Positions 310 through 38,883 of a DNA stretch of 38,883 nucleotides are shown piece after piece. The position numbers were made by a program, and so were the translations under genes. The first letter of the stretch is position 1. Each line of letters starts with the position of its first letter. A model generated the notes under the pieces. It made no database searches and was not told the DNA's origin. It worked only from the letters and a program-made list of their open reading frames with translations. The DNA is taken from positions 1 to 38,883 of the IMG/VR virus record IMGVR_UViG_3300025305_000050; one strand, written 5' to 3'. This DNA comes from a virus.

Positions 310-399
310 ATGGACTTTAACTCAACACTGCTTTTATTGTTCTTTATTATAATATTGGTTGCATTTTTGAAAGATATGTATAGTAGGGGGGGAGAATAA
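310..399 (+). CDS. one-helix membrane micropeptide, 29 aa
   Basis: ATG at 310 has a GGAGAAG SD (300-306). The product begins MDFNST, continues with about 16 hydrophobic residues (Leu, Phe, Ile), and ends KDMYSRGGE, so a single membrane helix is predicted. The TAA stop shares its last A with the ATG of the nuclease at 399 (TAATG), and the codons just before the stop (GGGGGGAGAA) supply the SD for that nuclease. Function unknown. Confidence 0.5.
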   Translation: MDFNSTLLLLFFIIILVAFLKDMYSRGGE

Positions 400-863
400 T
401 GGAAGGTGTAAAACAATTATTAATTGAGCATGAAATGGACATTCCTGCATTAAATGTCAAGGGAAGGGCTGATATAATTGCCCAAATGGAAACAGGCGAG
501 GTCTATGTGTATGACATTAAAACTATGAATTCATGGTCTTGGAAATTTAAGTTCGGAAGGAAAAAAGAGGGCAAACCATCTATCCATCAAGAGTTGCAAC
601 TCGGGACTTACGGATATGGAGTGAAGGAGGAGTTTGGAAGGTGTGATGGTTTGTTCCTCTTGTATTACAATAAGGATTCATCGGCTATGAAACAGGTTGA
701 GGTTGATTTAGACTTTATTGACCAAAGCTATAATTATTGGACAAGAGTTCAAGACTTACATAAACTAAATACTTTACCACGATTCCAGGAAGGTGAATCA
801 CCTGTAATGGAATGGGAGTGTAAATATTGTAATTATAGGGAGACATGTGATGAGAGAAGTTAG
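399..863 (+). CDS. Cas4/RecB-like PD-(D/E)XK exonuclease, short form
   Basis: This 154-aa protein has the RecB-nuclease core. GRAD (22-25) gives the first acidic metal ligand, YDIKT (38-42) the D-x-K pair, and HQELQLGTY (63-71) the QxxxY-type motif. Three C-terminal cysteines (141, 144, 150; CxxC-x5-C) resemble the iron-sulfur cysteines of Cas4/AddB-type nucleases. The family normally carries an N-terminal helical part and a fourth cysteine that I do not see. An in-frame TAG at 384-386 blocks extension, so this is a short version. Lying just before a Rad52-like annealing protein and an SSB, it probably supplies the strand-resecting exonuclease of a phage recombination module. Confidence 0.75.
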   Translation: MEGVKQLLIEHEMDIPALNVKGRADIIAQMETGEVYVYDIKTMNSWSWKFKFGRKKEGKPSIHQELQLGTYGYGVKEEFGRCDGLFLLYYNKDSSAMKQVEVDLDFIDQSYNYWTRVQDLHKLNTLPRFQEGESPVMEWECKYCNYRETCDERS

Positions 864-29330: not shown

Positions 29331-30645
29331 TCTCACTTTCCTCTCCATCGTTAGTTTGCAACTGTGGGGGAACAAAAGTAGTGAGCTGTGTCACATTTTT
29401 TTCAAGGTTTTCTTCAATTTTCCGTTCAGCTTCTTCAATGGTAATGTCTTTATTATTGCGTACCATGATCTCTGCAAGCGTCGTTTGACCATTCTTTAAA
29501 TCCCAATCGTCACGAAGAACTTTTTCCTGTTCTGATTTTGGGTAGTCTGGTTCAAGAAAATCAATTCCAAATTTATTGGGTAGCTTAGCACCATAAGGTG
29601 CTCCAACAAGTTGCTCAATTTCATAAAAATCATTTTCATATTGCCTCCATAATTCTATATCATCTTTAAAATCTTCAAAAGATTCCAAGTCTTTAATCTG
29701 AAGTGCTACTCCCGAAGGAGTCTCTCCACCATCTTGGGCAAATTGTACAAACATGTGGTTAGATTGTGCCAATAGCTCTATTTGAAATTTAATAGAGTCA
29801 ATTACTGCCTGCAGGTTGCCTCCGGGAGATGCAATCCCAAAATTTGCACCTTCAGGAAGAGAAATAATCATATCACTACCTGCTCTTGCAGTCATATCGG
29901 CTTCAGGAACCCCTGTGGCCCAAGGCTGTCCAAACATTTGGTATCTTAATCCTAATTGCATTTCAGTAAGAGTAATATTTATATGAGTATTACAATTAAT
30001 AATATCAACAGCACCCTCTACAAAGAAAGAATCAACCTGATGCTCACGATGGGTGAAAACAACTGGCAATCTACCAAGATTGTGTACCTCTTCCTTGACA
30101 ATATTCCCCCCTTTATCATATTCAATATAATATTCATCATCAATGTATGCAAATGCCTCCTCACCACTTCCATAAGAGGGATCATCTACAGGATTCATAA
30201 GAGGATAAGATATTGCAATAGGATTAAATGGATCACTTGGATCAAAATGGGGTATAAAGAAATAAATTGGATGATAACAAAATTTATCTCCTTCGTAAGT
30301 AACTTGAGTGGCAATAGTTCCAAGAAGTCTTGTCATTCTTTCAATGTGCTTAAAAGAAACATCCTTTTTCCTTGTGTAAGTAGTATATTTCTTATTCACA
30401 TTTCTGATTGCACCAAGAGTATAAATCTTTGACATCTTATTGATAAACTTTTTAGTAATATTCATCTCATAAACAGGAACTTCCTGAAAAGGAATAGCAT
30501 CAAAGTAAGGTTTAATGTATTGATGTATTGATGTGCCTGTATAGAAATTTAAATAAACTTCTATTTCCCTCCTCTTGGCATTAAGTCGATGTAACTTATC
30601 GTCTTTAATGGATTGTCTGATTAAATCTTTAGCGTATTGTGCCAT
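29299..30645 (-). CDS. portal protein
   Basis: 448 aa, directly after the large terminase and overlapping it by 25 bases. The arrangement of long helices and strands matches SPP1-type portals. It has an N-terminal helical clip region (LNAKRREIEVYLNFYTGTSI), a crown/stem region around 285-330 (IKFQIELLAQSNHMFVQFAQ, then GGETPSGVALQIKDLES), and an acidic disordered tail (DGEESENDDDDTDRGD). PSGVALQ is a typical portal motif. It forms the dodecameric DNA channel. Confidence 0.88.
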   Translation of the reverse strand: MAQYAKDLIRQSIKDDKLHRLNAKRREIEVYLNFYTGTSIHQYIKPYFDAIPFQEVPVYEMNITKKFINKMSKIYTLGAIRNVNKKYTTYTRKKDVSFKHIERMTRLLGTIATQVTYEGDKFCYHPIYFFIPHFDPSDPFNPIAISYPLMNPVDDPSYGSGEEAFAYIDDEYYIEYDKGGNIVKEEVHNLGRLPVVFTHREHQVDSFFVEGAVDIINCNTHINITLTEMQLGLRYQMFGQPWATGVPEADMTARAGSDMIISLPEGANFGIASPGGNLQAVIDSIKFQIELLAQSNHMFVQFAQDGGETPSGVALQIKDLESFEDFKDDIELWRQYENDFYEIEQLVGAPYGAKLPNKFGIDFLEPDYPKSEQEKVLRDDWDLKNGQTTLAEIMVRNNKDITIEEAERKIEENLEKNVTQLTTFVPPQLQTNDGEESENDDDDTDRGD

Positions 30646-31976
30646 TTATTACCCTCTTTTTTTCTATCTACAAATTTTATGCCTTGCTGTTTGATTGGAA
30701 AACGATTTAGGAGAAAGTATCTCAACATATCGCAACCATGATCATGAAAACCATCTTTAACAGGAATCTCTTTTAAGTCCTTACCCTCTTTATGTTCAGG
30801 ATAGCGATAATTCTCTAAATCTTCTGCTAATCCCATACAATTCTTATTTAAGTGTAGCCTGCGTAAGCCTTCAGCATTCTCAATGAAGCTTCTAACATGA
30901 GAAATACCTGCTTCTAATTTACGACTAATTTTGTCACGAACAAAGCGAACATTCATTCCATTTCTACGAAATTTTTCAATATCACCCATACCAGAAGAAG
31001 ATTGGACTGCACTACCTGCAGGGTCTCCGAAGGAAGCTATCACTCTGTATTTAGCCTGCTTATTTTTACATACATTAATAAGATCATCAGTTGTTACTCT
31101 TTCTTGGTGGATAAACTCATCAATAACATTGATATGCTCTATTCCGTCTACAGTATAGACTTGAAACCAGGCAGCAGCCGGCATTCTAAAACCAAAATCA
31201 ATACAAACATAGGTAGGAAGATTTGGTTGATAGGGGAAATTACCTAAATCCTTCATTCTATCAAATGGATAGACACGACCAGCAAATGAAGTAAACATTG
31301 CCCCATATTCTTGGTCAAAAATCTCTGTGGACATGTTTCTTTTAGCCTCGATAAGGTCAGGATCATCTAATCCAAGTGGATATGCATATTGATTCTCCCA
31401 TGACGGACTATTGAATGAATTCCAATCAACATCAGACTTTCCAAGAAGGAATTTATCATAATTCCAATTATAACCTTCCGGTGTTGATATGAAAAGGGCT
31501 TTGCCCTTACGATCTGAAAGAGTAGGGCGTAAATACATATCCCAAACAGTAGCTTTCTGCTTGGCAGACTCATCAAGTACGAGAAAATCCAGTCCCTCAC
31601 CCACAAGTGAAGGGGGGTTATCTGCTGATTTGCCCTCAAAGACCGAACCCCACTCGGTTTCTATATACATGTCACGGTATGATGCTCGTCTTGTTGGTAC
31701 GCCCTGATTCATTATAAGTTCAGCCCATACTTCACGAAAAACCTTTTCTGCAAGTTGATAATTTGGGGCAACTACCCAAGCTCTTTTATTTGGCTGTGTA
31801 ATTACAGCCTCAATCTCTTTAGCAGCAGCTATTGATTTTCCCCATCGTCTACCACATATTGCAACTGTAAATCGTGCCTCTTTATCGGGAAAGTGTAATT
31901 TTTCCTGACCTTTGTGTGGGATATACTTCGTGAATTTAAAGTATTTTCTCTTATAACGAAATAAGTCTTGACTCAT
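30621..31976 (-). CDS. terL: terminase large subunit
   Basis: 451 aa with both domains. ATPase: Walker A CGRRWGKS (41-48), Walker B FLVLDES (131-137) with catalytic Glu136, coupling motif STPEG (164-168). RNase H-like nuclease: D260 in CIDFGF (258-263), D318 in FGDPAG (316-321), and a third acid in HDHGCDMLRY near the C-terminus. It pumps and cuts DNA at the portal. No SD is seen before ATG 31976; the leader is an (AT)n tract, unlike most genes here. Confidence 0.95.
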   Translation of the reverse strand: MSQDLFRYKRKYFKFTKYIPHKGQEKLHFPDKEARFTVAICGRRWGKSIAAAKEIEAVITQPNKRAWVVAPNYQLAEKVFREVWAELIMNQGVPTRRASYRDMYIETEWGSVFEGKSADNPPSLVGEGLDFLVLDESAKQKATVWDMYLRPTLSDRKGKALFISTPEGYNWNYDKFLLGKSDVDWNSFNSPSWENQYAYPLGLDDPDLIEAKRNMSTEIFDQEYGAMFTSFAGRVYPFDRMKDLGNFPYQPNLPTYVCIDFGFRMPAAAWFQVYTVDGIEHINVIDEFIHQERVTTDDLINVCKNKQAKYRVIASFGDPAGSAVQSSSGMGDIEKFRRNGMNVRFVRDKISRKLEAGISHVRSFIENAEGLRRLHLNKNCMGLAEDLENYRYPEHKEGKDLKEIPVKDGFHDHGCDMLRYFLLNRFPIKQQGIKFVDRKKEGNKWHNTLKI

Positions 31977-32080
31977 ATTGAAAATTCAGTTATTTTATTT
32001 ATATATATATATATATATATATTAATATATATATTATTAAAAGAAAGAAAGAAAAAGAAGCAAAAGAAAGAAAGAAAAAT
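31977..32080 (-). other. non-coding leader of the large terminase with (AT)11 tract and duplicated GA-rich repeat
   Basis: The 104 bases between the small gene and terL hold no ORF. 32001-32022 is a pure (AT)11 run followed by another AT-rich stretch to 32040. An 18-base purine block (AAAAGAAAGAAAGAAAAA) occurs twice, at 32039-32056 and 32062-32079. On the coding strand this reads as a long pyrimidine tract then TATATA. It may be a promoter, an mRNA cleavage site or a packaging-site element. No SD lies before terL. Confidence 0.5.
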
Positions 32081-32281
32081 CTACCAGCTTGAAACCCATT
32101 CAACTTCAATCTCTTCATTTTGGTACTTATATGTTACTATCGTGCTATCATGCGTTACTAAATATTTCATAAATGAACAATGCCCTTCTTTTTTATAGTG
32201 AGTGTGCTGGACATCGCAATAGGATGGACATGTATATCCAGCCATTGGGTACTTATCAAGATAGTGACCCCATTGACCCAC
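32081..32281 (-). CDS. small protein with possible membrane anchor, 66 aa or longer
   Basis: The conservative start is GTG 32281 without SD. The frame stays open upstream to 32326 and would add a hydrophobic stretch (LIVGSIIFAGIFVIVG) if translation began at a non-standard codon such as ATA 32308 or ATT 32305, which follow GGAAG. The rest has cysteines at 18, 22 and 35 and an acidic, beta-like end (YKYQNEEIEVEWVSSW). It lies between the two terminase genes. Function unknown. Confidence 0.5.
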   Translation of the reverse strand: MGQWGHYLDKYPMAGYTCPSYCDVQHTHYKKEGHCSFMKYLVTHDSTIVTYKYQNEEIEVEWVSSW

Positions 32282-32319
32282 AATGACAAAAATTCCAGCA
32301 AAAATTATACTTCCAACGA

Positions 32320-33024
32320 TTAACGATTACCTAATACCTTCCCAAATTTTTTTATTTCAAGTTCTTCGAGCTTATCCCACCACGCATCTCTCTGTGATTT
32401 TGTCCTTCGACCAGGTTTCAACAGTTTTAAGCCAACTGCTTTTGCTCGTTTTCTTCTTTCATACATGTTTTGTTGCAACTCTTTCTGAGTGATCTTCTTC
32501 TTTTCAGACTGCGTAGCCAACTTAAGCATTTTAAGTTCATCTTTTTCCCTAAGCTTAGGGAGATCATTACTAGTATCCCTATCAGGAAGAACAATGTCAT
32601 CAACAATGAGAGCACTTGCTTGCTCAGCAATTGAAATAGCTCCATTAGTGATTCCTTCATCTTGAACGAACTCTGCATTTTCAACATCCTCCATTTTCAT
32701 AAATTTTTCAAAAGGACTTTCAACTTGTATCTTAACCTTATGTTCCAACTTTCCAAAATGTTCCAACACAAGCCGACCAGCTTGAACATTACCAGCCTTT
32801 GCTTCTCGGATCATTGCACTAATGACAAATGGTAATTCTTTACCTGCAACCTCCATAAATCTTTTATATAAAACATCTATGAATAGAGGATCACTCAACC
32901 ATGTTCTGACCGTAGGAGTGGTAACACCCAAGCTCTCAGCTAAATCCTTCTGTGTTAAATGAGGTGTAACTGCCAACATCTCAACAGCTAATAACCTTTC
33001 CTTACTCTTTCTTACTTTTTCCAT
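32320..33024 (-). CDS. terS: terminase small subunit
   Basis: 234 aa beginning the leftward virion operon. Residues 12-46 form a helix-turn-helix (AVTPHLTQKDLAESLGVTTP, then TVRTWLSDP), the DNA-recognition domain, followed by helices (ELPFVISAMIREAKAGNVQA, GRLVLEHFGKLE; about 63-95) for oligomerisation. The C-terminal part is basic. The product recognises the packaging site and hands DNA to the large subunit. The packaging site itself often lies in or near this gene. Confidence 0.8.
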   Translation of the reverse strand: MEKVRKSKERLLAVEMLAVTPHLTQKDLAESLGVTTPTVRTWLSDPLFIDVLYKRFMEVAGKELPFVISAMIREAKAGNVQAGRLVLEHFGKLEHKVKIQVESPFEKFMKMEDVENAEFVQDEGITNGAISIAEQASALIVDDIVLPDRDTSNDLPKLREKDELKMLKLATQSEKKKITQKELQQNMYERRKRAKAVGLKLLKPGRRTKSQRDAWWDKLEELEIKKFGKVLGNR

Positions 33025-33325
33025 ACTCTAAACTTAACTTGAAATTCAAATTATTTCCAATGATTAATTTGAGATTTAATAAAAACGCAGATATTCAAGT
33101 TCTTTTGGACTAATTATGTGCTGAGGGGATATAGGTGAACGATTTTCACCCATACCACATATGGGGGTGGGTTTATAGCATACTACTATATATAGTAGGT
33201 CAGACAATAAAAGTGTAATCTGAAAAAGAAATTTCTTAGATTCAATTACCAATATATACTAAATTTGTTTGGTGGTAGAAATGCCACATTAAATGTAAAT
33301 ACAACGTAAAGAAAGGTAAAATAAA
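33025..33325 (+). promoter_or_regulatory. divergent control region between virion operon and right-hand early genes
   Basis: This 301-base spacer is the only divergent junction in the window and must hold promoters for both directions. Visible elements are TTGAAATTCAA (33039-33049), an inverted repeat just upstream of terS; the hairpin GGTGAA/TTCACC (33134-33139/33145-33150); CCCATA/TATGGG (33149-33154/33160-33165), which shares bases with the previous hairpin; and the palindrome at 33183. TAAATTTGTTTGGTG (33260-33274) resembles motifs in two other right-hand leaders. Exact promoters cannot be fixed by eye. Confidence 0.55.
33183..33198. promoter_or_regulatory. 16-base palindrome, possible operator
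   Basis: CTACTATATATAGTAG is a perfect palindrome in the middle of the divergent control region. Related TATATA-centred palindromes occur in two other leaders of the right-hand module (33883-33896 and 35778-35789). It could be a binding site for a dimeric regulator or a symmetric TATA-like promoter core. Confidence 0.4.
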
Positions 33326-33763
33326 ATGACTACAAAAGATAGTACTTCTAATAAAGTTGAACCGGTAAAAAAACCATCTAAAATCAAAGTAAGTGAAGCA
33401 AAGTTCAATGCTTTGGTTGATGAACAAAAGAAAGTTATCAATGACACAAAGAAGCAATGTGGGATTAAGATGACGTTACAAGAACGTAAAGCAAGTGATG
33501 ATCATGCCGTGCAAATTGTATCCAAATCACATTACTTTGGTCACGTTGGTAACTTCAATCACTTCCATAAAGATGATCAAAAGTTGATAGTTGAAATTGA
33601 TGATTTCATTAAGGCACAAAAGAAGAAAAGTAAGACCGGTCTTAAGGCTATTTGTCCAAAGGGTATAGAATATGGCTTTGGTAGATATATTAACAAAACA
33701 GGAAAAGTTGTTAAACCTAAAAAAACCAAGAAATCTGAGATTGAAAAGTCTAATAAAAAATAG
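33326..33763 (+). CDS. lysine-rich hypothetical protein, 145 aa
   Basis: First gene of the right-hand rightward module, with AAAGAAAGG (33308-33316) as SD. It is very basic, with Lys-rich ends (VEPVKKPSKIKVSEAK at 12-27; VVKPKKTKKSEIEKSNKK at the end), and a central segment with several His and aromatic residues (SKSHYFGHVGNFNHFHKDDQ). A DNA- or RNA-binding early protein is plausible. No family recognised. A terminator follows, so it forms its own unit. Confidence 0.65.
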   Translation: MTTKDSTSNKVEPVKKPSKIKVSEAKFNALVDEQKKVINDTKKQCGIKMTLQERKASDDHAVQIVSKSHYFGHVGNFNHFHKDDQKLIVEIDDFIKAQKKKSKTGLKAICPKGIEYGFGRYINKTGKVVKPKKTKKSEIEKSNKK

Positions 33764-33784
33764 ATTTTAGATTTTAGAAAAATT

Positions 33785-33838
33785 AGGTAGGTAAAAAAAT
33801 CTGATTGTTTCCACAAGATCAGGTTTTTTACCTTACCT
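33785..33838 (+). terminator. terminator after the 33326 gene, inside a longer hairpin
   Basis: CTGA-TTGT-TTCC-ACAA-GA-TCAG (33801-33822) is a stem-loop followed by G and T6 (33824-33829), the standard Rho-independent form. The outer sequences AGGTAGGT (33785-33792) and ACCTTACCT (33830-33838) also pair, making a hairpin of about 20 bp over the whole element, so an antiterminated form may exist. Confidence 0.65.
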
Positions 33839-33923
33839 GTAAATTGTAAATAATCTGCTTAAATGTTTAGGTGAAATTTCCCCTTATATATATAAGCACA
33901 ACAAAAACGTAAAGGAGTAAATA
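33839..33923 (+). promoter_or_regulatory. leader of the 33924 unit with TATATA palindrome
   Basis: The leader holds TAAATGTTTAGGTG (33860-33873), similar to a motif in the leaders at 33260 and 35726, and the perfect palindrome CTTATATATATAAG (33883-33896), 27 bases before the start. AAAGGAG (33909-33915) is the SD. A promoter is expected here because a terminator lies immediately upstream. Confidence 0.45.
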
Positions 33924-34127
33924 ATGGAATCTGAAAAGAAAATTATCTGTTGGTTTTGTCAAGACAAAGTAACGGATGAATCTCAAATTGTTAAGCAGAA
34001 GTTTAGCAATAAATTCTGGAGTGTTTGTAAAACCTGTCATATTGCACTAAAGAGGGTTTCAGGCATTAGATCAGCAATCAATGTAGTTCAGATAATAAGA
34101 AAGGAGAATGATTATGCAATTCGTTAA
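33924..34127 (+). CDS. zinc-finger protein, 67 aa
   Basis: AAAGGAG precedes the start. The protein has CWFC (9-12) and CKTC (35-38), a four-cysteine zinc site, then a basic helical tail (SGIRSAINVVQIIRKENDY). It overlaps the next membrane peptide gene by 14 bases. This is one of several zinc-knuckle proteins in the two rightward modules; it may bind nucleic acid or host proteins. Function unknown. Confidence 0.65.
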   Translation: MESEKKIICWFCQDKVTDESQIVKQKFSNKFWSVCKTCHIALKRVSGIRSAINVVQIIRKENDYAIR

Positions 34128-34233
34128 ATTCATGATAAATGAGATTTTATTGCCAAGTCTGACATTTGTAATAGGTGTCTGGTTTGTTGCAATACTTGTA
34201 AAAATATTAATAATAATCTATAATTGGGTATAA
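34114..34233 (+). CDS. one-helix membrane protein, 39 aa
   Basis: ATG 34114 lies inside the end of the zinc-finger gene, with AAAGGAG (34100-34106) at good spacing. After MQFVKFMINEILLPS the chain is hydrophobic (LTFVIGVWFVAILVKILIII), ending YNWV. A single membrane-spanning segment is predicted. Tiny early membrane proteins of this sort are frequent in phages; no specific role can be given. Confidence 0.55.
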   Translation: MQFVKFMINEILLPSLTFVIGVWFVAILVKILIIIYNWV

Positions 34234-34244
34234 AGGAGAATAAT

Positions 34245-34412
34245 ATGAAACTGATGTTTGTAGTAGAAGGTGATATAAATGGTCTGGCACAGAAAGAACA
34301 TTGTGTGCCTGATGAAATAATAAACTCAATTACAAATGATATCCAGTCTTTGGTAAAAGGTTATGGGCTGGAATCATATTGTGATGATGCAACAGATAAC
34401 AAAGGAGAATAA
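34245..34412 (+). CDS. hypothetical acidic protein, 55 aa
   Basis: ATG 34245 (MKLMFVVEGDINGLAQKEHC) has AAAGGAG (34233-34239) upstream and is preferred over the earlier in-frame GTA-region start. The protein is a beta strand followed by helices and an acidic end. Two cysteines (22 and 47) are present. Part of a four-gene unit with tight spacing; function unknown. Confidence 0.6.
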   Translation: MKLMFVVEGDINGLAQKEHCVPDEIINSITNDIQSLVKGYGLESYCDDATDNKGE

Positions 34413-34414
34413 TA

Positions 34415-34684
34415 ATGCCGAGTTCACCAATAACATCAGAACATGTGGCTAATCCTGTAGAAAGGAAAAGGCTGAAAAATACATACTATCACATTCCTGA
34501 AATATCTGCCATATTCACGGTCTGGTATAATGGCAATACAGCATATTTGATGTATGCCTATGATGATGACCAACTGGCTAATGAAGAAAGCTGGGGGCAT
34601 TGTGAAGAGACAGATGGCATTTCTGAATATGATATGCAATCTATAAATAGGACATTCAGAACCAAGTTTGTATTCCTGAAATAG
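34415..34684 (+). CDS. hypothetical protein, 89 aa
   Basis: It starts two bases after the previous stop, with AAAGGAG (34401-34407). It is acidic and aromatic-rich, with alternating short strands (AIFTVWYNGNTAYLMYAYDD) suggesting a small beta sheet, then an acidic helix and a final strand (FRTKFVFLK). No motif is recognised. Last gene of its unit; a long leader follows. Confidence 0.65.
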   Translation: MPSSPITSEHVANPVERKRLKNTYYHIPEISAIFTVWYNGNTAYLMYAYDDDQLANEESWGHCEETDGISEYDMQSINRTFRTKFVFLK

Positions 34685-34875
34685 AATAACTCAGATCGGA
34701 TAAAATCCTGAAAATATATTCACTGCAATACATATGACTGCTGTTGCCTAAAAATCTGGGTTATATTATATTATATTAATGTACCTGTAACATTATATTA
34801 TGAAAGTTTTTATTATATCTCGTTCCAAGTAAAACAGAAAAAGTAAACCATAAATGAAAAAAAAGGAGTAACATA
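34685..34875 (+). promoter_or_regulatory. leader B of the right-hand module (191 bases)
   Basis: No ORF of note. It shares several blocks with the leader at 35630-35865: AATCCTGAAA near its start, AATGTACCTGTA (34779-34789 region), GTTCCAA followed by an A-rich tract with AAACAG, and an AAAAAAAGGAGTAA SD. The shared order suggests duplication of one promoter-leader unit. TTATATTATATTATATTAAT (34760-34779) is a likely promoter core. Confidence 0.45.
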
Positions 34876-35007
34876 ATGCCAAGATCAAAATGCAAAAAAC
34901 CTACTAACAAAATCTGGAGAAAAAAACGGAATGGTAGGAAATTGAAATTCCAGCTGTTTGTTAAGACAGAAAAAGTAATCAATAATCTATTAAAGGAGAG
35001 AACATAA
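34876..35007 (+). CDS. small basic protein, 43 aa
   Basis: AAAGGAG (34862-34868) precedes ATG 34876. The peptide is very basic, with Lys/Arg making up nearly 40% (MPRSKCKKPTNKIWRKKRNG start), then an FQLFVKTEKVINNLL segment. The stop shares its last A with the ATG of the next gene (TAATG). A nucleic-acid-binding role is plausible. Not previously recognised by me. Confidence 0.6.
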   Translation: MPRSKCKKPTNKIWRKKRNGRKLKFQLFVKTEKVINNLLKERT

Positions 35008-35441
35008 TGAAAGAACTTTCCAATATGCAGAAATGTGAAATATGCTGTAAGAAGTTAACTGAACCAGCAATGAGAAATAGTACCTGTAAGAAGTGTGATC
35101 TTGCAATATCCGAATCCGAAGCTGAAAAGGCTATAATGGAGCATTATGGTTTTGATAACTCGTTAGAGACCGACAGCAATCCACGAATTGCTATCACAAC
35201 ACGATCTTCAGTAACTTGTTCACCACAGGGATTAGAAGGAATATGCGTTACACTGCCCTTAGGAGAGGTTATGATGGTCTTGATTGAAGAAATGAAGGAG
35301 AACCCTAAAATTGCAGATGTATTCAATAGGCTTTCAGCAGACCAACATTATGAGGGTGAAGATGAATATATCGTTATGACCAAACATCAGATAAATGTAT
35401 TTGCTGATAGATGGTGTAATGGGAGAGCAAAAGCACTATGA
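35007..35441 (+). CDS. zinc-finger hypothetical protein, 144 aa
   Basis: Coupled by TAATG to the basic peptide gene. The N-terminus has CEIC (10-13) and CKKC (27-30), a zinc knuckle pair. Residues 58-145 form a separate acidic domain with strand-like and helical segments (GICVTLPLGEVMMVLIEEMK, NPKIADVFNRLS). The stop region overlaps the next start as ATGA. The combination of zinc knuckle plus acidic domain hints at a partner-binding protein. Function unknown. Confidence 0.65.
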   Translation: MKELSNMQKCEICCKKLTEPAMRNSTCKKCDLAISESEAEKAIMEHYGFDNSLETDSNPRIAITTRSSVTCSPQGLEGICVTLPLGEVMMVLIEEMKENPKIADVFNRLSADQHYEGEDEYIVMTKHQINVFADRWCNGRAKAL

Positions 35442-35629
35442 AAAGAGTATTTGTAAAAGATGGCTACATCATCAATGTTGAGGAAATGGGCGAAAAACTC
35501 AGACAAGCCAAAGAAACGCTGAGGAGGAAAAGAATCAGCGAATCTTTAAAGGCTCGTAATAAGGAAATCCGTAACTATAATAATGGGCTGGAGGAGCTTA
35601 AGGCTCATTGGAGGAGGGCAGTGAAATAG
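35438..35629 (+). CDS. basic helical protein, 63 aa
   Basis: ATGA overlap with the previous gene. The product starts MKRVFVKDGYIINVEEMGEK and then forms an Arg/Lys-rich helix (LRQAKETLRRKRISESLKAR, ending LKAHWRRAVK). It may be a small DNA- or RNA-binding protein. It ends its unit; the 236-base leader of the amidoligase gene follows. Confidence 0.6.
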   Translation: MKRVFVKDGYIINVEEMGEKLRQAKETLRRKRISESLKARNKEIRNYNNGLEELKAHWRRAVK

Positions 35630-35865
35630 GAACAATCCTGAAATATTAACCGACAGCAGATAATCCAAACACTCAGATAATCTGACCCAGCATTTCACCT
35701 GACAGAGATTTGCACAATACCTGATTAAAATGTTTGGTGTATATAATGTACCTGTATCAATTTAGTTGTAATTCGTTCTTATATATAAGAGTGCTTTAAA
35801 ATTTGAGTTCCAAATAGTAAACAGTAAATAAAAAGAAACAGTAAATAAAAAAAGGAGTAAAGTAA
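35630..35865 (+). promoter_or_regulatory. leader C before the amidoligase gene (236 bases)
   Basis: No gene is seen. It holds AATCCTGAAA (35634-35643), TAAAATGTTTGGTG (35726-35739), AATGTACCTGTA (35745-35756), the palindrome CTTATATATAAG (35778-35789), GTTCCAA with an A-rich tract, and AAAAAAAGGAGTAA before ATG 35866. The same blocks, in the same order, occur in the leader at 34685-34875 and partly at 33839-33923, so this is probably a phage-specific promoter with a conserved 5' UTR. Confidence 0.5.
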
Positions 35866-37566
35866 ATGAAAAAAAGAAACAACATCTACATAAATGCAAT
35901 AGCAGTAGTTAGCGACCCTGACAGCTCGGAAAAGATAGCTCACGTGGTATCAGGAAGAGATCCACTTCTGTGGATTAAGGTTCTGGAAACACGATCCCTG
36001 AGAATCCATATTCATAACTTTGAGAATAATATGATTAATATCTCTACAAAGACATTGGATGCTGAGCTTCAAGATAGCTGTGATCAATACAATAATGGAG
36101 ATTCATTTAACTCAGTTAATCTTGACACTACTATGAGGATTGTACTGAATAAAACCACTTCAGGGTTTGGTGGAATTAAACAAGCCGTAAAAAATATCTC
36201 AGAGCCAGACTACTCTCATTTGTTTAGAGATTTGTTATTGCTGAGATCTCATGCATATACTCGATCTTGGAAAGAAAATATGATCTCTCAGGCTCTGGTA
36301 AGAGAACCCATTACCTGTAATATGCGTGCTGTCAGGGATACATTTCCTGTATATAAAGGACTATTCGTGAAATACTTTGACAGATTAAAGATAGATCATA
36401 CATGGCATGATGGTTTCTACATGAATATATTTGAGATGAGTACTGTATCTATAAACAGGTGTAATCACTGTGACGATCATTTCTGGGAAGGTTTGTCAGA
36501 TGATTATGAGGATTACGAAGAGTTCTATGATGTATCTGGAGATTCGTGGTGTCAGTCTTGCTATGAATCAGATTCTCAATATTGTGAGAGCTGTGATCAT
36601 AATTATCACACGGATTCATTCTGTAATAGTTCAGATGGAGAACCAGTGTGTGAAACCTGCTGGGATGAAAGAAGAGAATCAATTGATTCATACTGCTCAA
36701 ACCCTCCCTTAATATTCTATGTGTACAACAGTGGGCAGAAATTAATCCAAGTAGTAGAAAGACAGGATAAAACTCCATTTTACGGAGTTGAGCTTGAGGT
36801 TGAAGAGGGTGATGGTGATAAGTATCAGGTTGCAGACGAAATCAGGAATTATGGTGGACATAAAAAATATTTCTGGTGCAAGGGCGATGGATCTCTAACC
36901 AATGGATTTGAGATTTGTTCACATCCTATGACTTTTGAGGCTTGGCGAGAGTTGGATTTGAAGGCTGCAATATTTACACATAGAGGGGATATTAAATCCT
37001 ACTATACAAATACCTGTGGAATCCATATTCATATGAATAGAAGTGCATTCTCAGATTTGCATGTTCTGAAATTTATGACCTTTATTCATGAATATAAAAA
37101 GATGACTCATTTTATTGCACAGAGAAGAAAGTGGTCTGAATACAACAACTACTGCAAGTTTGAAGAAGGGCTTGTAAGGAAATCACAGAGAAGAATGGCT
37201 CAGGATGTGAGATCTAAAAAGAGAAGAATCATAGAAGGTACAAATGTCACAAAATACTGCACAATAAGTACAGGTGATAAGTATGTTCCTGTAAACATAC
37301 AGCACAGGGATAGTATTGAGGTTAGGGTATTCAAGGGAAATCTGAGAGAGGTATCGTTCAGAAAAAACATTGAATATCTTGATGCACTGTATTACTGGAC
37401 TAAAAATACTCCATTAAATAAATTGGATATTAAAGAGTTTGGCAGATACATGGAAAGTAATAAGAAAAAATACCCCAATCTGATTGAATATATCGGTGAG
37501 AGGGAACAAGACTACAGGGCTTGCTTTATTACAGCAAGAGAAATTCCTGAAGAACTTCACATATAA
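35866..37566 (+). CDS. amidoligase-like protein (glutamine synthetase fold) with zinc-binding insert
   Basis: 566 aa. The C-terminal half matches the Amidoligase_2-type pattern: FYGVELEVE (305-313), KGDGSLTNGFEICSHPM (339-355), CGIHIHMN (384-391) with paired His, FIAQRR (416-421), KYCTI (463-467) and the basic IEVRVFKG (484-491). These enzymes use ATP to join a carboxylate and an amine, the amine sometimes ammonia. Residues 199-265 carry nine cysteines in CxxC pairs (199/202, 229/232, 240/243, 262/265 plus 253), a zinc-binding insert. The next gene encodes a glutamine amidotransferase, a natural ammonia donor. Residues 1-195 are unrecognised. The substrate is unknown. Confidence 0.75.
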   Translation: MKKRNNIYINAIAVVSDPDSSEKIAHVVSGRDPLLWIKVLETRSLRIHIHNFENNMINISTKTLDAELQDSCDQYNNGDSFNSVNLDTTMRIVLNKTTSGFGGIKQAVKNISEPDYSHLFRDLLLLRSHAYTRSWKENMISQALVREPITCNMRAVRDTFPVYKGLFVKYFDRLKIDHTWHDGFYMNIFEMSTVSINRCNHCDDHFWEGLSDDYEDYEEFYDVSGDSWCQSCYESDSQYCESCDHNYHTDSFCNSSDGEPVCETCWDERRESIDSYCSNPPLIFYVYNSGQKLIQVVERQDKTPFYGVELEVEEGDGDKYQVADEIRNYGGHKKYFWCKGDGSLTNGFEICSHPMTFEAWRELDLKAAIFTHRGDIKSYYTNTCGIHIHMNRSAFSDLHVLKFMTFIHEYKKMTHFIAQRRKWSEYNNYCKFEEGLVRKSQRRMAQDVRSKKRRIIEGTNVTKYCTISTGDKYVPVNIQHRDSIEVRVFKGNLREVSFRKNIEYLDALYYWTKNTPLNKLDIKEFGRYMESNKKKYPNLIEYIGEREQDYRACFITAREIPEELHI

Positions 37567-37590
37567 TAACTAAAAAAGGAGAATAAAATA

Positions 37591-38481
37591 ATGTGTTTAC
37601 TTGTATTACAAAAAGAGAATTCCAGCCTAACGCTGGAAGAACTAAACAATGCTAATCAGGCAAATCCAGATGGAATTGGATATGCGTATGTAAATAATGG
37701 AAGGCTCATAACGAGAAAGTTCAGGAATTACAAAAAGTTCCTAAATGGCTACTCAAGAGATATTGGGACATACAGCCAGAGCTCGCCATTTCTTCTGCAT
37801 TTCCGATTAGCTACTCATGGAGTGAATAAAGGAGTGGAAAATGTACATCCATTCAAAGTAAAAGATGACCTGATATTTGCACATAATGGAATTATAGGTG
37901 ATGTCAGCAATTCTACGATTTATTCAGATACACAAATGTTCAATTTCGAGATATTACAGAAACTTGAGGGAGAATTTTTGAAAAATCTCGGGATAATTAA
38001 GCTATTATCCGAATTTGTGTCTGGATCAAAACTTGTATTCCTTAATGATAAAAAGGAGTTTAACATAATCAATGAGCATTCTGGACATTGGAATGAAGAT
38101 AAAACAATCTGGTTTTCCAATTCTGGCTATAAAAAGACAGTAACATACGGCTATGGCTGGAGTTGTGATGGATATAATTACAGAAGCCCAAACCTGCTAA
38201 ATACTGGTTCTAAATCAAAATTTAGTTTTGGAACAACCAGATCAACTGCATTGTCTACAAATATGACTAATGAGGATAAATTACCAACTTGTGAGTGGTG
38301 TGGAATGGAATCTGGTGACTTATTGTCTCTTGATGTAACGGACTATTACACAGCAGGAATCAGCCATGATACAATAATGGCTGACCTTTGCCCAGAATGC
38401 AGTAAGTCCAAACTCGAGGATGAAAGAGTATTAGATAATCGCAGATTGTCAGGAGGTGATAATGATCTATTTAATTGCTAA
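37591..38481 (+). CDS. class II glutamine amidotransferase with C-terminal zinc ribbon
   Basis: 296 aa. N-terminal nucleophile C2 (MCLLV) would be exposed after Met removal. NPDGIGYAY (25-33), LHFRLATHG (69-77), and FAHNGII (96-102) are the class II amidotransferase glutamine-site motifs, with SDTQMF (112-117) following. It hydrolyses glutamine to release ammonia. After the amidotransferase domain (about 1-180), residues 234-270 have CEWC and CPEC, a zinc ribbon. It follows the amidoligase by 24 bases with AAAAGGAG as SD, so the two are one transcription unit and probably one enzyme system. Confidence 0.85.
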   Translation: MCLLVLQKENSSLTLEELNNANQANPDGIGYAYVNNGRLITRKFRNYKKFLNGYSRDIGTYSQSSPFLLHFRLATHGVNKGVENVHPFKVKDDLIFAHNGIIGDVSNSTIYSDTQMFNFEILQKLEGEFLKNLGIIKLLSEFVSGSKLVFLNDKKEFNIINEHSGHWNEDKTIWFSNSGYKKTVTYGYGWSCDGYNYRSPNLLNTGSKSKFSFGTTRSTALSTNMTNEDKLPTCEWCGMESGDLLSLDVTDYYTAGISHDTIMADLCPECSKSKLEDERVLDNRRLSGGDNDLFNC

Positions 38482-38581
38482 TACAGGAGATGGGTTGGTT
38501 TTCTGGATTGCGTGGATTGTTATGGGATTAATTCTCCTTGAGTTCATTGTGAGTGTAATTCGTGAGTTCCTGGAAGATTAA
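38462..38581 (+). CDS. one-helix membrane protein, 39 aa
   Basis: ATG 38462 overlaps the end of the amidotransferase gene by 20 bases and has a strong AGGAGGTGATA SD (38451-38461). After MIYLIANTGDG comes a long hydrophobic stretch (LVFWIAWIVMGLILLEFIVS), then VIREFLED. One membrane helix is predicted. It could anchor or accompany the amidoligase-amidotransferase system at the membrane, or be unrelated. Terminator follows directly. Confidence 0.6.
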   Translation: MIYLIANTGDGLVFWIAWIVMGLILLEFIVSVIREFLED

Positions 38582-38598
38582 AACTGGTGTGGGAATAC

Positions 38599-38626
38599 GG
38601 AGGGGAGCAATCCCCTCCCTTTTTCC
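38599..38626 (+). terminator. Rho-independent terminator of the right-hand module
   Basis: GGAGGGGA (38599-38606) pairs with TCCCCTCC (38611-38618) over 8 bp around the very stable GCAA tetraloop, followed by CTTTTT. It lies 17 bases after the last + strand stop. This is the clearest terminator in the window and marks the end of the amidoligase transcription unit. Confidence 0.85.
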
Positions 38627-38689
38627 CAAAAAAATTTAATCATATATTGTATAAATTAGGGATGAATTTTAACCCATCAAATTTAACGA

Positions 38690-38862
38690 TTACGGGCATT
38701 TTTTTAACTTCTTGATCATTGTACCCATTGAATAAAAAAGTTCCATATACTTTAAATTTGCTTGGCTATCGTCTAAAATATATCGAGAAACTTTTCCGAG
38801 AACCAATGAATTATCTGGAAATTTGCATCTGGGAATTGATTTTTTTTCTGGAAAAAAATTTT
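38690..38862 (-). pseudogene. possible partial or frameshifted gene at the right edge
   Basis: The - strand frame is open from about 38862 to TAA 38690-38692 and reads like real protein (CKFPDNSLVLGKVSRYILDD, then SQANLKYMELFYSMGTMIKK). It has no good start codon, and a stop lies upstream near 38862-38864. A one-base change in the A8 run (+ strand T8, 38840-38847) would join it to a frame open to the window edge. It may be a gene truncated by the edge with an indel, or a decayed gene. The rest of 38627-38883 shows nothing clear. Confidence 0.3.
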
Positions 38863-38883
38863 AAAATTGCTATTAATTTTTAC

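Follow-up and report, generated by a model that had tools for sequence, protein, structure and literature searches.

A zinc-array amidoligase and its adjacent class II glutamine amidotransferase form a predicted amide-forming pair of phages and small mobilizable elements

We analysed a stretch of viral DNA of 38,883 nucleotides, referred to here as the window (IMG/VR virus record IMGVR_UViG_3300025305_000050, positions 1 to 38,883). Its minus strand carries the genes for terminase, portal and major head protein, and its plus strand encodes a PD-(D/E)XK nuclease, a DNA methylase and a DnaB-type helicase. The last two open reading frames (ORFs) of the window are both on the plus strand and run from 35866 to 37566 (566 aa) and from 37591 to 38481 (296 aa), with a spacing of 24 bases. 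The original prediction for this locus, made from the sequence alone, had described an amidoligase followed by a class II glutamine amidotransferase (GAT). Its coordinates for the two ORFs were confirmed exactly, as were the motifs it listed: GVELEVE, DGSLTNGFEI, CGIHIHMN and IEVRVFKG in the 566-aa protein, and Cys2, NPDGIGYA, HFRLATHG and FAHNGI in the 296-aa protein. The features of the locus are as follows.

35866..37566, plus strand: amidoligase gene, 566 aa (Pfam Amidoligase_2 above cut-off; PHROG 16683, E=3e-29; Shine-Dalgarno sequence AAGGAG just 5' of the gene)
35866..36447, plus strand: N-terminal region of the amidoligase, residues 1-194, with no recognised domain (pLDDT mostly <50; partly common to the near relatives L014 and L015)
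36451..36685, plus strand: zinc-ligand array, residues ~196-273 (four CxxC motifs from residues 199, 229, 240 and 262; LIM-like in the family profile)
36781..37494, plus strand: predicted glutamine-synthetase-fold amidoligase domain, residues ~306-543 (AlphaFold2 core pLDDT mostly >90; Foldseek; invariant residues)
37591..38481, plus strand: class II GAT gene, 296 aa (PHROG 25883, E=1e-13; family profile against GlmS and PurF; Shine-Dalgarno sequence AAGGAG just 5' of the gene)
37591..38160, plus strand: predicted Ntn-hydrolase glutaminase domain, residues 1-190 (AlphaFold2 pLDDT mostly >90; Foldseek; conserved residues)
38287..38402, plus strand: C-terminal zinc-ribbon-like tail with CxxC pairs at C234/C237 and a second near the end (sequence; homologue conservation)

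A second IMG/VR contig, L001, matches window positions 30303-38883 with 99.7% identity over 8.6 kb, and both ORFs are intact on it; therefore, the pair in the window is not an assembly artefact. L001 extends 487 bases beyond the end of the window and reaches the start of the PD-(D/E)XK nuclease gene, and the nuclease also lies 3' of the GAT in the relatives L014, L015 and L258. These observations suggest that the pair is part of a plus-strand arm that continues to the replication genes, and the two ends of the window are probably joined by a short gap. The nuclease is itself encoded in two separate ORFs (window 399-863 and L001 8733-8987), an 84-aa N-terminal part and a C-terminal part, and the gap between the nuclease ORFs measures approximately 0.3-1.1 kb in the same three relatives. 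An Rfam search of the early region and the split-nuclease gap returned no intron and no structured RNA. Upstream of the amidoligase gene are two small proteins with CxxC pairs (window 33924-34127 and 35007-35441), the second of which has no match in Pfam.

The 566-aa protein matches Pfam Amidoligase_2 (PF12224) with 29.8 bits and E=7e-7, which passes the curated cut-off of 22 bits. A single-chain AlphaFold2 model, built with 43 homologues in the alignment, is confident for residues ~220-545 and not for residues 1-194. When this model was compared with the PDB using Foldseek, gamma-glutamylmethylamide synthetase (GmaS, probability 0.99), YbdK (0.98) and the Pup ligase PafA (0.87) were on top, and the probabilities of the matches are mostly 0.87-0.99 although their E-values exceed 0.001. 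The structure comparison indicates a common glutamine-synthetase fold, with identity of only ~10% across the structural match. Sixteen positions are invariant in the 43 homologues, including E309, E311, D341, S343, E349, H387, H389, R420, E485 and R487. In a profile alignment with E. coli GlnA, CGIHIHM falls opposite GSGMHCHM and IEVRVF opposite IEVRFP, which places H387/H389 on H269/H271 and E485/R487 on E357/R359 in mature GlnA numbering. A sequence-profile search of the amidoligase family against solved glutamine synthetases gave no direct match, nearly all of its matches being LIM proteins, so the link to the glutamine-synthetase fold comes from the structure comparison and the pairwise profile alignment. 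On this evidence, the 566-aa protein is predicted to be an amidoligase of the glutamine-synthetase/PafA fold.

The 296-aa protein scores 20 bits against Pfam GATase_4, under the 23-bit cut-off. The profile of its family, however, matches GlmS and PurF in the PDB with E-values of about 1e-11, and the best Foldseek match of its model is the GlmS glutaminase domain (1xff, E=1.8e-6), with PurF and EgtC also found. Because the protein is below the Pfam cut-off but its fold match is strong, we place it in the class II superfamily and not in PF13230. The sequence opens with Met-Cys, so that Cys2, the predicted nucleophile, directly follows the initiator methionine. C2, R72, T75, G77, N99 and G100 are invariant in all 41 aligned homologues, and D113 is present in 37 of them. 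The window GAT therefore has in common with the glutaminase domains of GlmS and PurF and with EgtC the Ntn-hydrolase fold, the N-terminal cysteine and the Arg/Thr/Asn/Gly/Asp glutamine site. It differs from them as a stand-alone domain with a zinc-ribbon-like tail, in which 37 of 41 homologues have C237; one or more C-terminal CxxC motifs occur in 54 of 65 viral GATs. At the position of W74 of GlmS, the window GAT has leucine, and its family has mostly other hydrophobic residues. Both enzyme assignments of the original prediction are upheld by these data, the amidoligase by the Pfam match, the GS-like fold and the catalytic residues kept in 43 homologues, and the class II amidotransferase by the GlmS/PurF profile and fold matches and by a C2 found in every homologue aligned. 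Structure prediction of the single chains, which it had proposed as a check, gave a GS-like active site in the amidoligase and a glutaminase fold in the GAT.

These same comparisons allow for gamma-glutamyl chemistry, in which the amidoligase would couple an amine to glutamate at its gamma-carboxyl group, or to another acid, and the product would be hydrolysed or trimmed by the GAT-fold protein in the manner of EgtC, with no transfer of ammonia. GlmS and PurF are ammonia-channelling enzymes, whereas EgtC is a gamma-glutamyl hydrolase, and EgtC is both among the structural matches of the GAT and its best NCBIfam match, the latter far below cut-off. PafA, GmaS and YbdK take an amine as acceptor and are not known to work with a GAT, and the products of GmaS and YbdK are gamma-glutamyl amides. 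Moreover, the diverged GATs of phages C75C1 and ctfjg026 (L008 4001-4897 and L009 4001-5218) are fused to a gamma-glutamyl cyclotransferase domain, which keeps this alternative alive. Set against it are the better matches of the GAT to GlmS and PurF than to EgtC, the presence of the cyclotransferase motif in only two of the GATs examined, and the finding that no cyclotransferase family recurs near the pair in the phage and genome loci. We regard gamma-glutamyl chemistry as a serious contender that is nonetheless unlikely.

A further feature of the amidoligase is the zinc-ligand array that precedes its catalytic domain. At least two CxxC motifs occur in this position in 123 of 137 amidoligase-GAT pairs, with a maximum of 11, and the array is missing in approximately 10% of pairs. 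The family profile of the amidoligase matches tandem LIM proteins, the best being CRP1 (E=2.7e-5). In the family member L122, a Pfam LIM match is just below cut-off, and the window amidoligase alone has no LIM match in Pfam. LIM domains are protein binders, and for that reason a macromolecular target is favoured. The original prediction named the family of this protein correctly and missed the LIM-like zinc array that most of its homologues carry. Zinc motifs do not covary between the amidoligase and the GAT (Fisher p=0.15); therefore, a zinc-mediated contact of the two proteins is unsupported. A search of the literature for LIM domains named together with amidoligases found none, and a tandem LIM-like zinc array before an amidoligase domain was likewise not found described. 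The amidoligases of L197, L206, L217 and L251 each have a repetitive, acidic-looking N-terminal region in which CxxC motifs are few or absent; these regions are possibly degenerate zinc modules.

The family is large, with at least 579 amidoligase relatives in a scan of phage contigs and 447 GAT relatives. Pairing was scored in scans that kept the best 80 matches, and the query profile was built mostly from paired examples, so the pairing figures are valid for this subfamily and not for all Amidoligase_2 proteins. With the amidoligase as bait, 79 viral loci were kept among the best matches, and in 77 of them the amidoligase is followed directly by a GAT ORF of the same strand; in the two others, the contig ends no more than 170 bases past the amidoligase stop codon. 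A GAT is likewise found alongside in 77 of the best 80 loci in GTDB genomes, where two of the three exceptions are contig ends and the third, L129 (Oscillibacter), is either real or diverged. With the GAT as bait, an adjacent upstream amidoligase was recognised by HMM in 69 of the best 80 viral loci. Of the remaining 11, six begin no more than 340 bases from the end of a contig, and five have a diverged amidoligase directly upstream, accepted by eye from recognisable motifs, which brings the total to 74 of 74 evaluable viral loci. As a control, relatives of the terminase of the window phage were collected; either gene is carried by 3 of 64 such loci, all three having both side by side. Some of the 64 loci are too short to show the pair, but in 28 the relevant side extends for 7 kb or more. 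Adjacency is kept at protein identities of 20-30%, in phages and chromosomal mobile elements alike, and the distances among amidoligases are correlated with those among GATs (Mantel rho 0.56; 0 of 2000 permutations). The conserved adjacency for which the original prediction had called for a profile search was thus found to be near-universal from both baits. Had adjacency been seen in one genome alone, the two genes could have been neighbours in a phage accessory region with no relation to each other; near-universal adjacency at 20-30% identity makes this hardly credible and refutes it for this subfamily.

Departures from the two-gene arrangement were also observed. In C. difficile phage AR1086-1 and plasmid pCd18_2 (L011 and L318), an amidoligase occurs with no adjacent GAT, and the AR1086-1 protein has no zinc array. 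Two tandem amidoligase genes precede one GAT in L021, L026, L027, L118, L126, L164 and L166. In the genomic locus L122 (1674-3845), zinc array, amidoligase and GAT are all encoded by a single 723-aa ORF, in which the GAT part starts with an internal Met-Cys; this is either a natural fusion or a lost stop codon. We considered L122 as proof of physical fusion and found it weak, since the internal Met-Cys could be a separate start for the GAT part and an Ntn enzyme requires its catalytic cysteine at the N-terminus.

All 34 terminase large-subunit genes recovered near the pair in viral loci are on the opposite strand and upstream of it, and when the long minus-strand genes upstream of the pair were scanned with Pfam, terminase and portal families were confirmed. 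No third gene family was found to recur close to the pair in phages, and in PADLOC neither the amidoligase nor the GAT matched a known defence or anti-defence system. Outside phages, we found 26 loci in Ruminococcus and its relatives (20 distinct at 85% identity) in which a minus-strand relaxase gene, usually a minus-strand MobC gene, and then plus-strand DUF960, amidoligase and GAT genes lie within approximately 5 kb, in most cases with a serine recombinase or integrase after the GAT. L104, L123, L131, L155 and 22 similar loci are such compact elements, and their flanks differ in those inspected closely. DUF960 and recombinases recur next to the pair in the ruminococcal elements only; DUF4314, DUF1643, DUF960 or an integrase are found around the pair in other loci. 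The pair is accessory cargo of several kinds of mobile element. While the pair itself was confirmed, the original prediction of a phage system missed this spread into non-phage mobile elements.

A repeat of the TCGCTTCGCTCC type lies between MobC and DUF960 in approximately 7 of 20 ruminococcal loci and may be an origin of transfer. The pair genes point away from this presumed oriT. Single-stranded expression of leading-region genes has been described (PMC11541004), and the main text of that paper on leading-region anti-defence names no amidoligase. An argument for the pair based on leading region and origin of transfer was rejected, as the gene orientation speaks against expression driven by ssDNA.

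The pairing of amidoligase and GAT genes has been reported for Pseudomonas phage tf (PMC3517423), LUZ24-like phages (PMC3890496) and Pseudoalteromonas phage PSA-HP1 (PMC5498523), and both genes are named in the OM43 phages MEP401/402 in a report that cites earlier phiEco32 and Marvin work (PMC10580990). The pairing is also in print for Phage-ZRK32 (PMC10945688). Several of these reports cite Iyer et al. 2009, and the roles proposed are wall modification, superinfection exclusion, secondary metabolism and nitrogen metabolism. Given these precedents, the description of the window pair as the best candidate for an undescribed system was too strong. Our literature search found no direct test of these enzymes and no experiment on a substrate. 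That search also found no description of small relaxase-bearing elements that carry the pair in Ruminococcus or its relatives, or of the pair adjoining and divergent from terminase genes. The closest counterparts are gp105/gp106 of Mycobacterium phage Marvin, where a homologous amidoligase is directly followed by a class II GAT in the same order and on the same strand, and the homologous pairs of Methylophilales phages MEP401/402 (gp05/gp06 and gp06/gp07), which also keep order and strand. The window proteins are only ~21-33% identical to these, and the CxxC motifs before the amidoligase domain number four in Marvin, two in MEP401/402 and four in the window. Like the window, the podovirus cassette of phiEco32, LUZ24, tf, RIO-1 and PSA-HP1 has an Amidoligase_2 protein and a class II GAT among non-structural genes; its predicted function is to modify peptidoglycan or peptides. 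Further genes of the phiEco32/LUZ24-type cassette encode a COOH-NH2 ligase-type amidoligase, an ATP-grasp enzyme and, in many cases, a gamma-glutamyl cyclotransferase, whereas the window amidoligase has the zinc array. No ATP-grasp enzyme, second amidoligase or cyclotransferase was recognised by length and sequence among the window ORFs from 34 kb to the end, and none of them is a recurrent neighbour in relatives. The window pair is a compact zinc-array form of a predicted cassette, one that is widely spread outside phages.

For phiEco32/LUZ24-type cassettes, it has been proposed that the enzymes act on the envelope (PMC5498523, PMC10580990, PMC11318856). Applied here, the pair would amidate carboxylates of peptidoglycan stem peptides or another envelope precursor, leading to a wall change or a block to superinfection. 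Bacteria offer a precedent in MurT/GatD, which amidates wall precursors with nitrogen from glutamine (PMC3267633). We consider envelope modification quite improbable for the window pair: three further genes of that cassette (ATP-grasp, COOH-NH2 ligase and cyclotransferase) are missing from the window and most relatives, the zinc array points to a partner that is a macromolecule, and the published role is itself a prediction for which our literature search found no experiment. Another proposal is an auxiliary role in which the pair raises amino-acid or nitrogen assimilation of the infected cell. It was made for Phage-ZRK32 (PMC10945688), whose genes include those for an amidoligase, a GAT, a glutathione synthase and a cyclotransferase. 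That claim is based on gene content and on the growth effect of the whole phage, and minimal mobilizable elements and LIM-like arrays would be unexpected for a bulk metabolic enzyme; such a role is very improbable here.

The best explanation, to which we assign a probability of roughly 0.5, is that the pair is a zinc-targeted, glutamine-fed amidation enzyme of mobile elements that acts on host material early after entry. Its amidation chemistry is well inferred, from the predicted folds and the conserved residues. The two gene products would be subunits of one ATP-dependent amide-forming enzyme, in which the GAT would free ammonia from glutamine by means of its N-terminal cysteine and the amidoligase would activate a carboxylate as an acyl-phosphate and hand it to that ammonia. 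The zinc array, LIM-like in the family, would most likely hold a protein partner or substrate, and the targeted carboxylate is likelier to belong to a macromolecule of the host, probably a protein, than to a free metabolite. The pair would serve the mobile element soon after entry, in counter-defence or host takeover and not in virion assembly or lysis; early action is suggested because minimal elements carry the pair and because it is positioned by packaging or transfer genes outside the structural operon. Several observations argue against this explanation, namely the fold that the GAT has in common with the hydrolase EgtC, the two phage GAT-cyclotransferase fusions that point to gamma-glutamyl chemistry, the uncorrelated zinc motifs of the two proteins and the pairs lacking an array, the amidoligases with no neighbouring GAT (L011, L318 and L129), and the failure of the window protein alone to match LIM in Pfam. 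The early-entry role is further weakened by the ruminococcal gene orientation, which appears unlike that expected for expression from entering ssDNA. A narrower version is speculative and rather unlikely as a whole; in it, phages and small mobilizable elements would share a zinc-targeted enzyme of two proteins that, for counter-defence or takeover, uses ammonia from glutamine to turn a carboxylate of a specific host protein into an amide (in effect Glu to Gln, Asp to Asn, or amidation of the C-terminus) shortly after the DNA has entered. We know of no such post-translational modification described for mobile elements.

The pair recurs in hundreds of phage contigs and in small mobilizable elements of gut Ruminococcus, and the findings reduce the problem to a single unit that is open to experiment, namely two enzymes that form a self-contained pair and are also present in the culturable Mycobacterium smegmatis phage Marvin. 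The zinc module should pull down the target of the enzyme and, if that target is a host protein, mobile elements would be using a modification of a new kind. In the linear record of Marvin, the pair lies within the last 3.5 kb. On Mycobacteroides abscessus plasmid pGD21-2 (L319 2902-4600) there are an amidoligase gene and another with the annotation glucosamine 6-phosphate synthetase, both located no more than 2.3 kb from the end of a 155-kb linear record, which resembles the position of the pair in Marvin.
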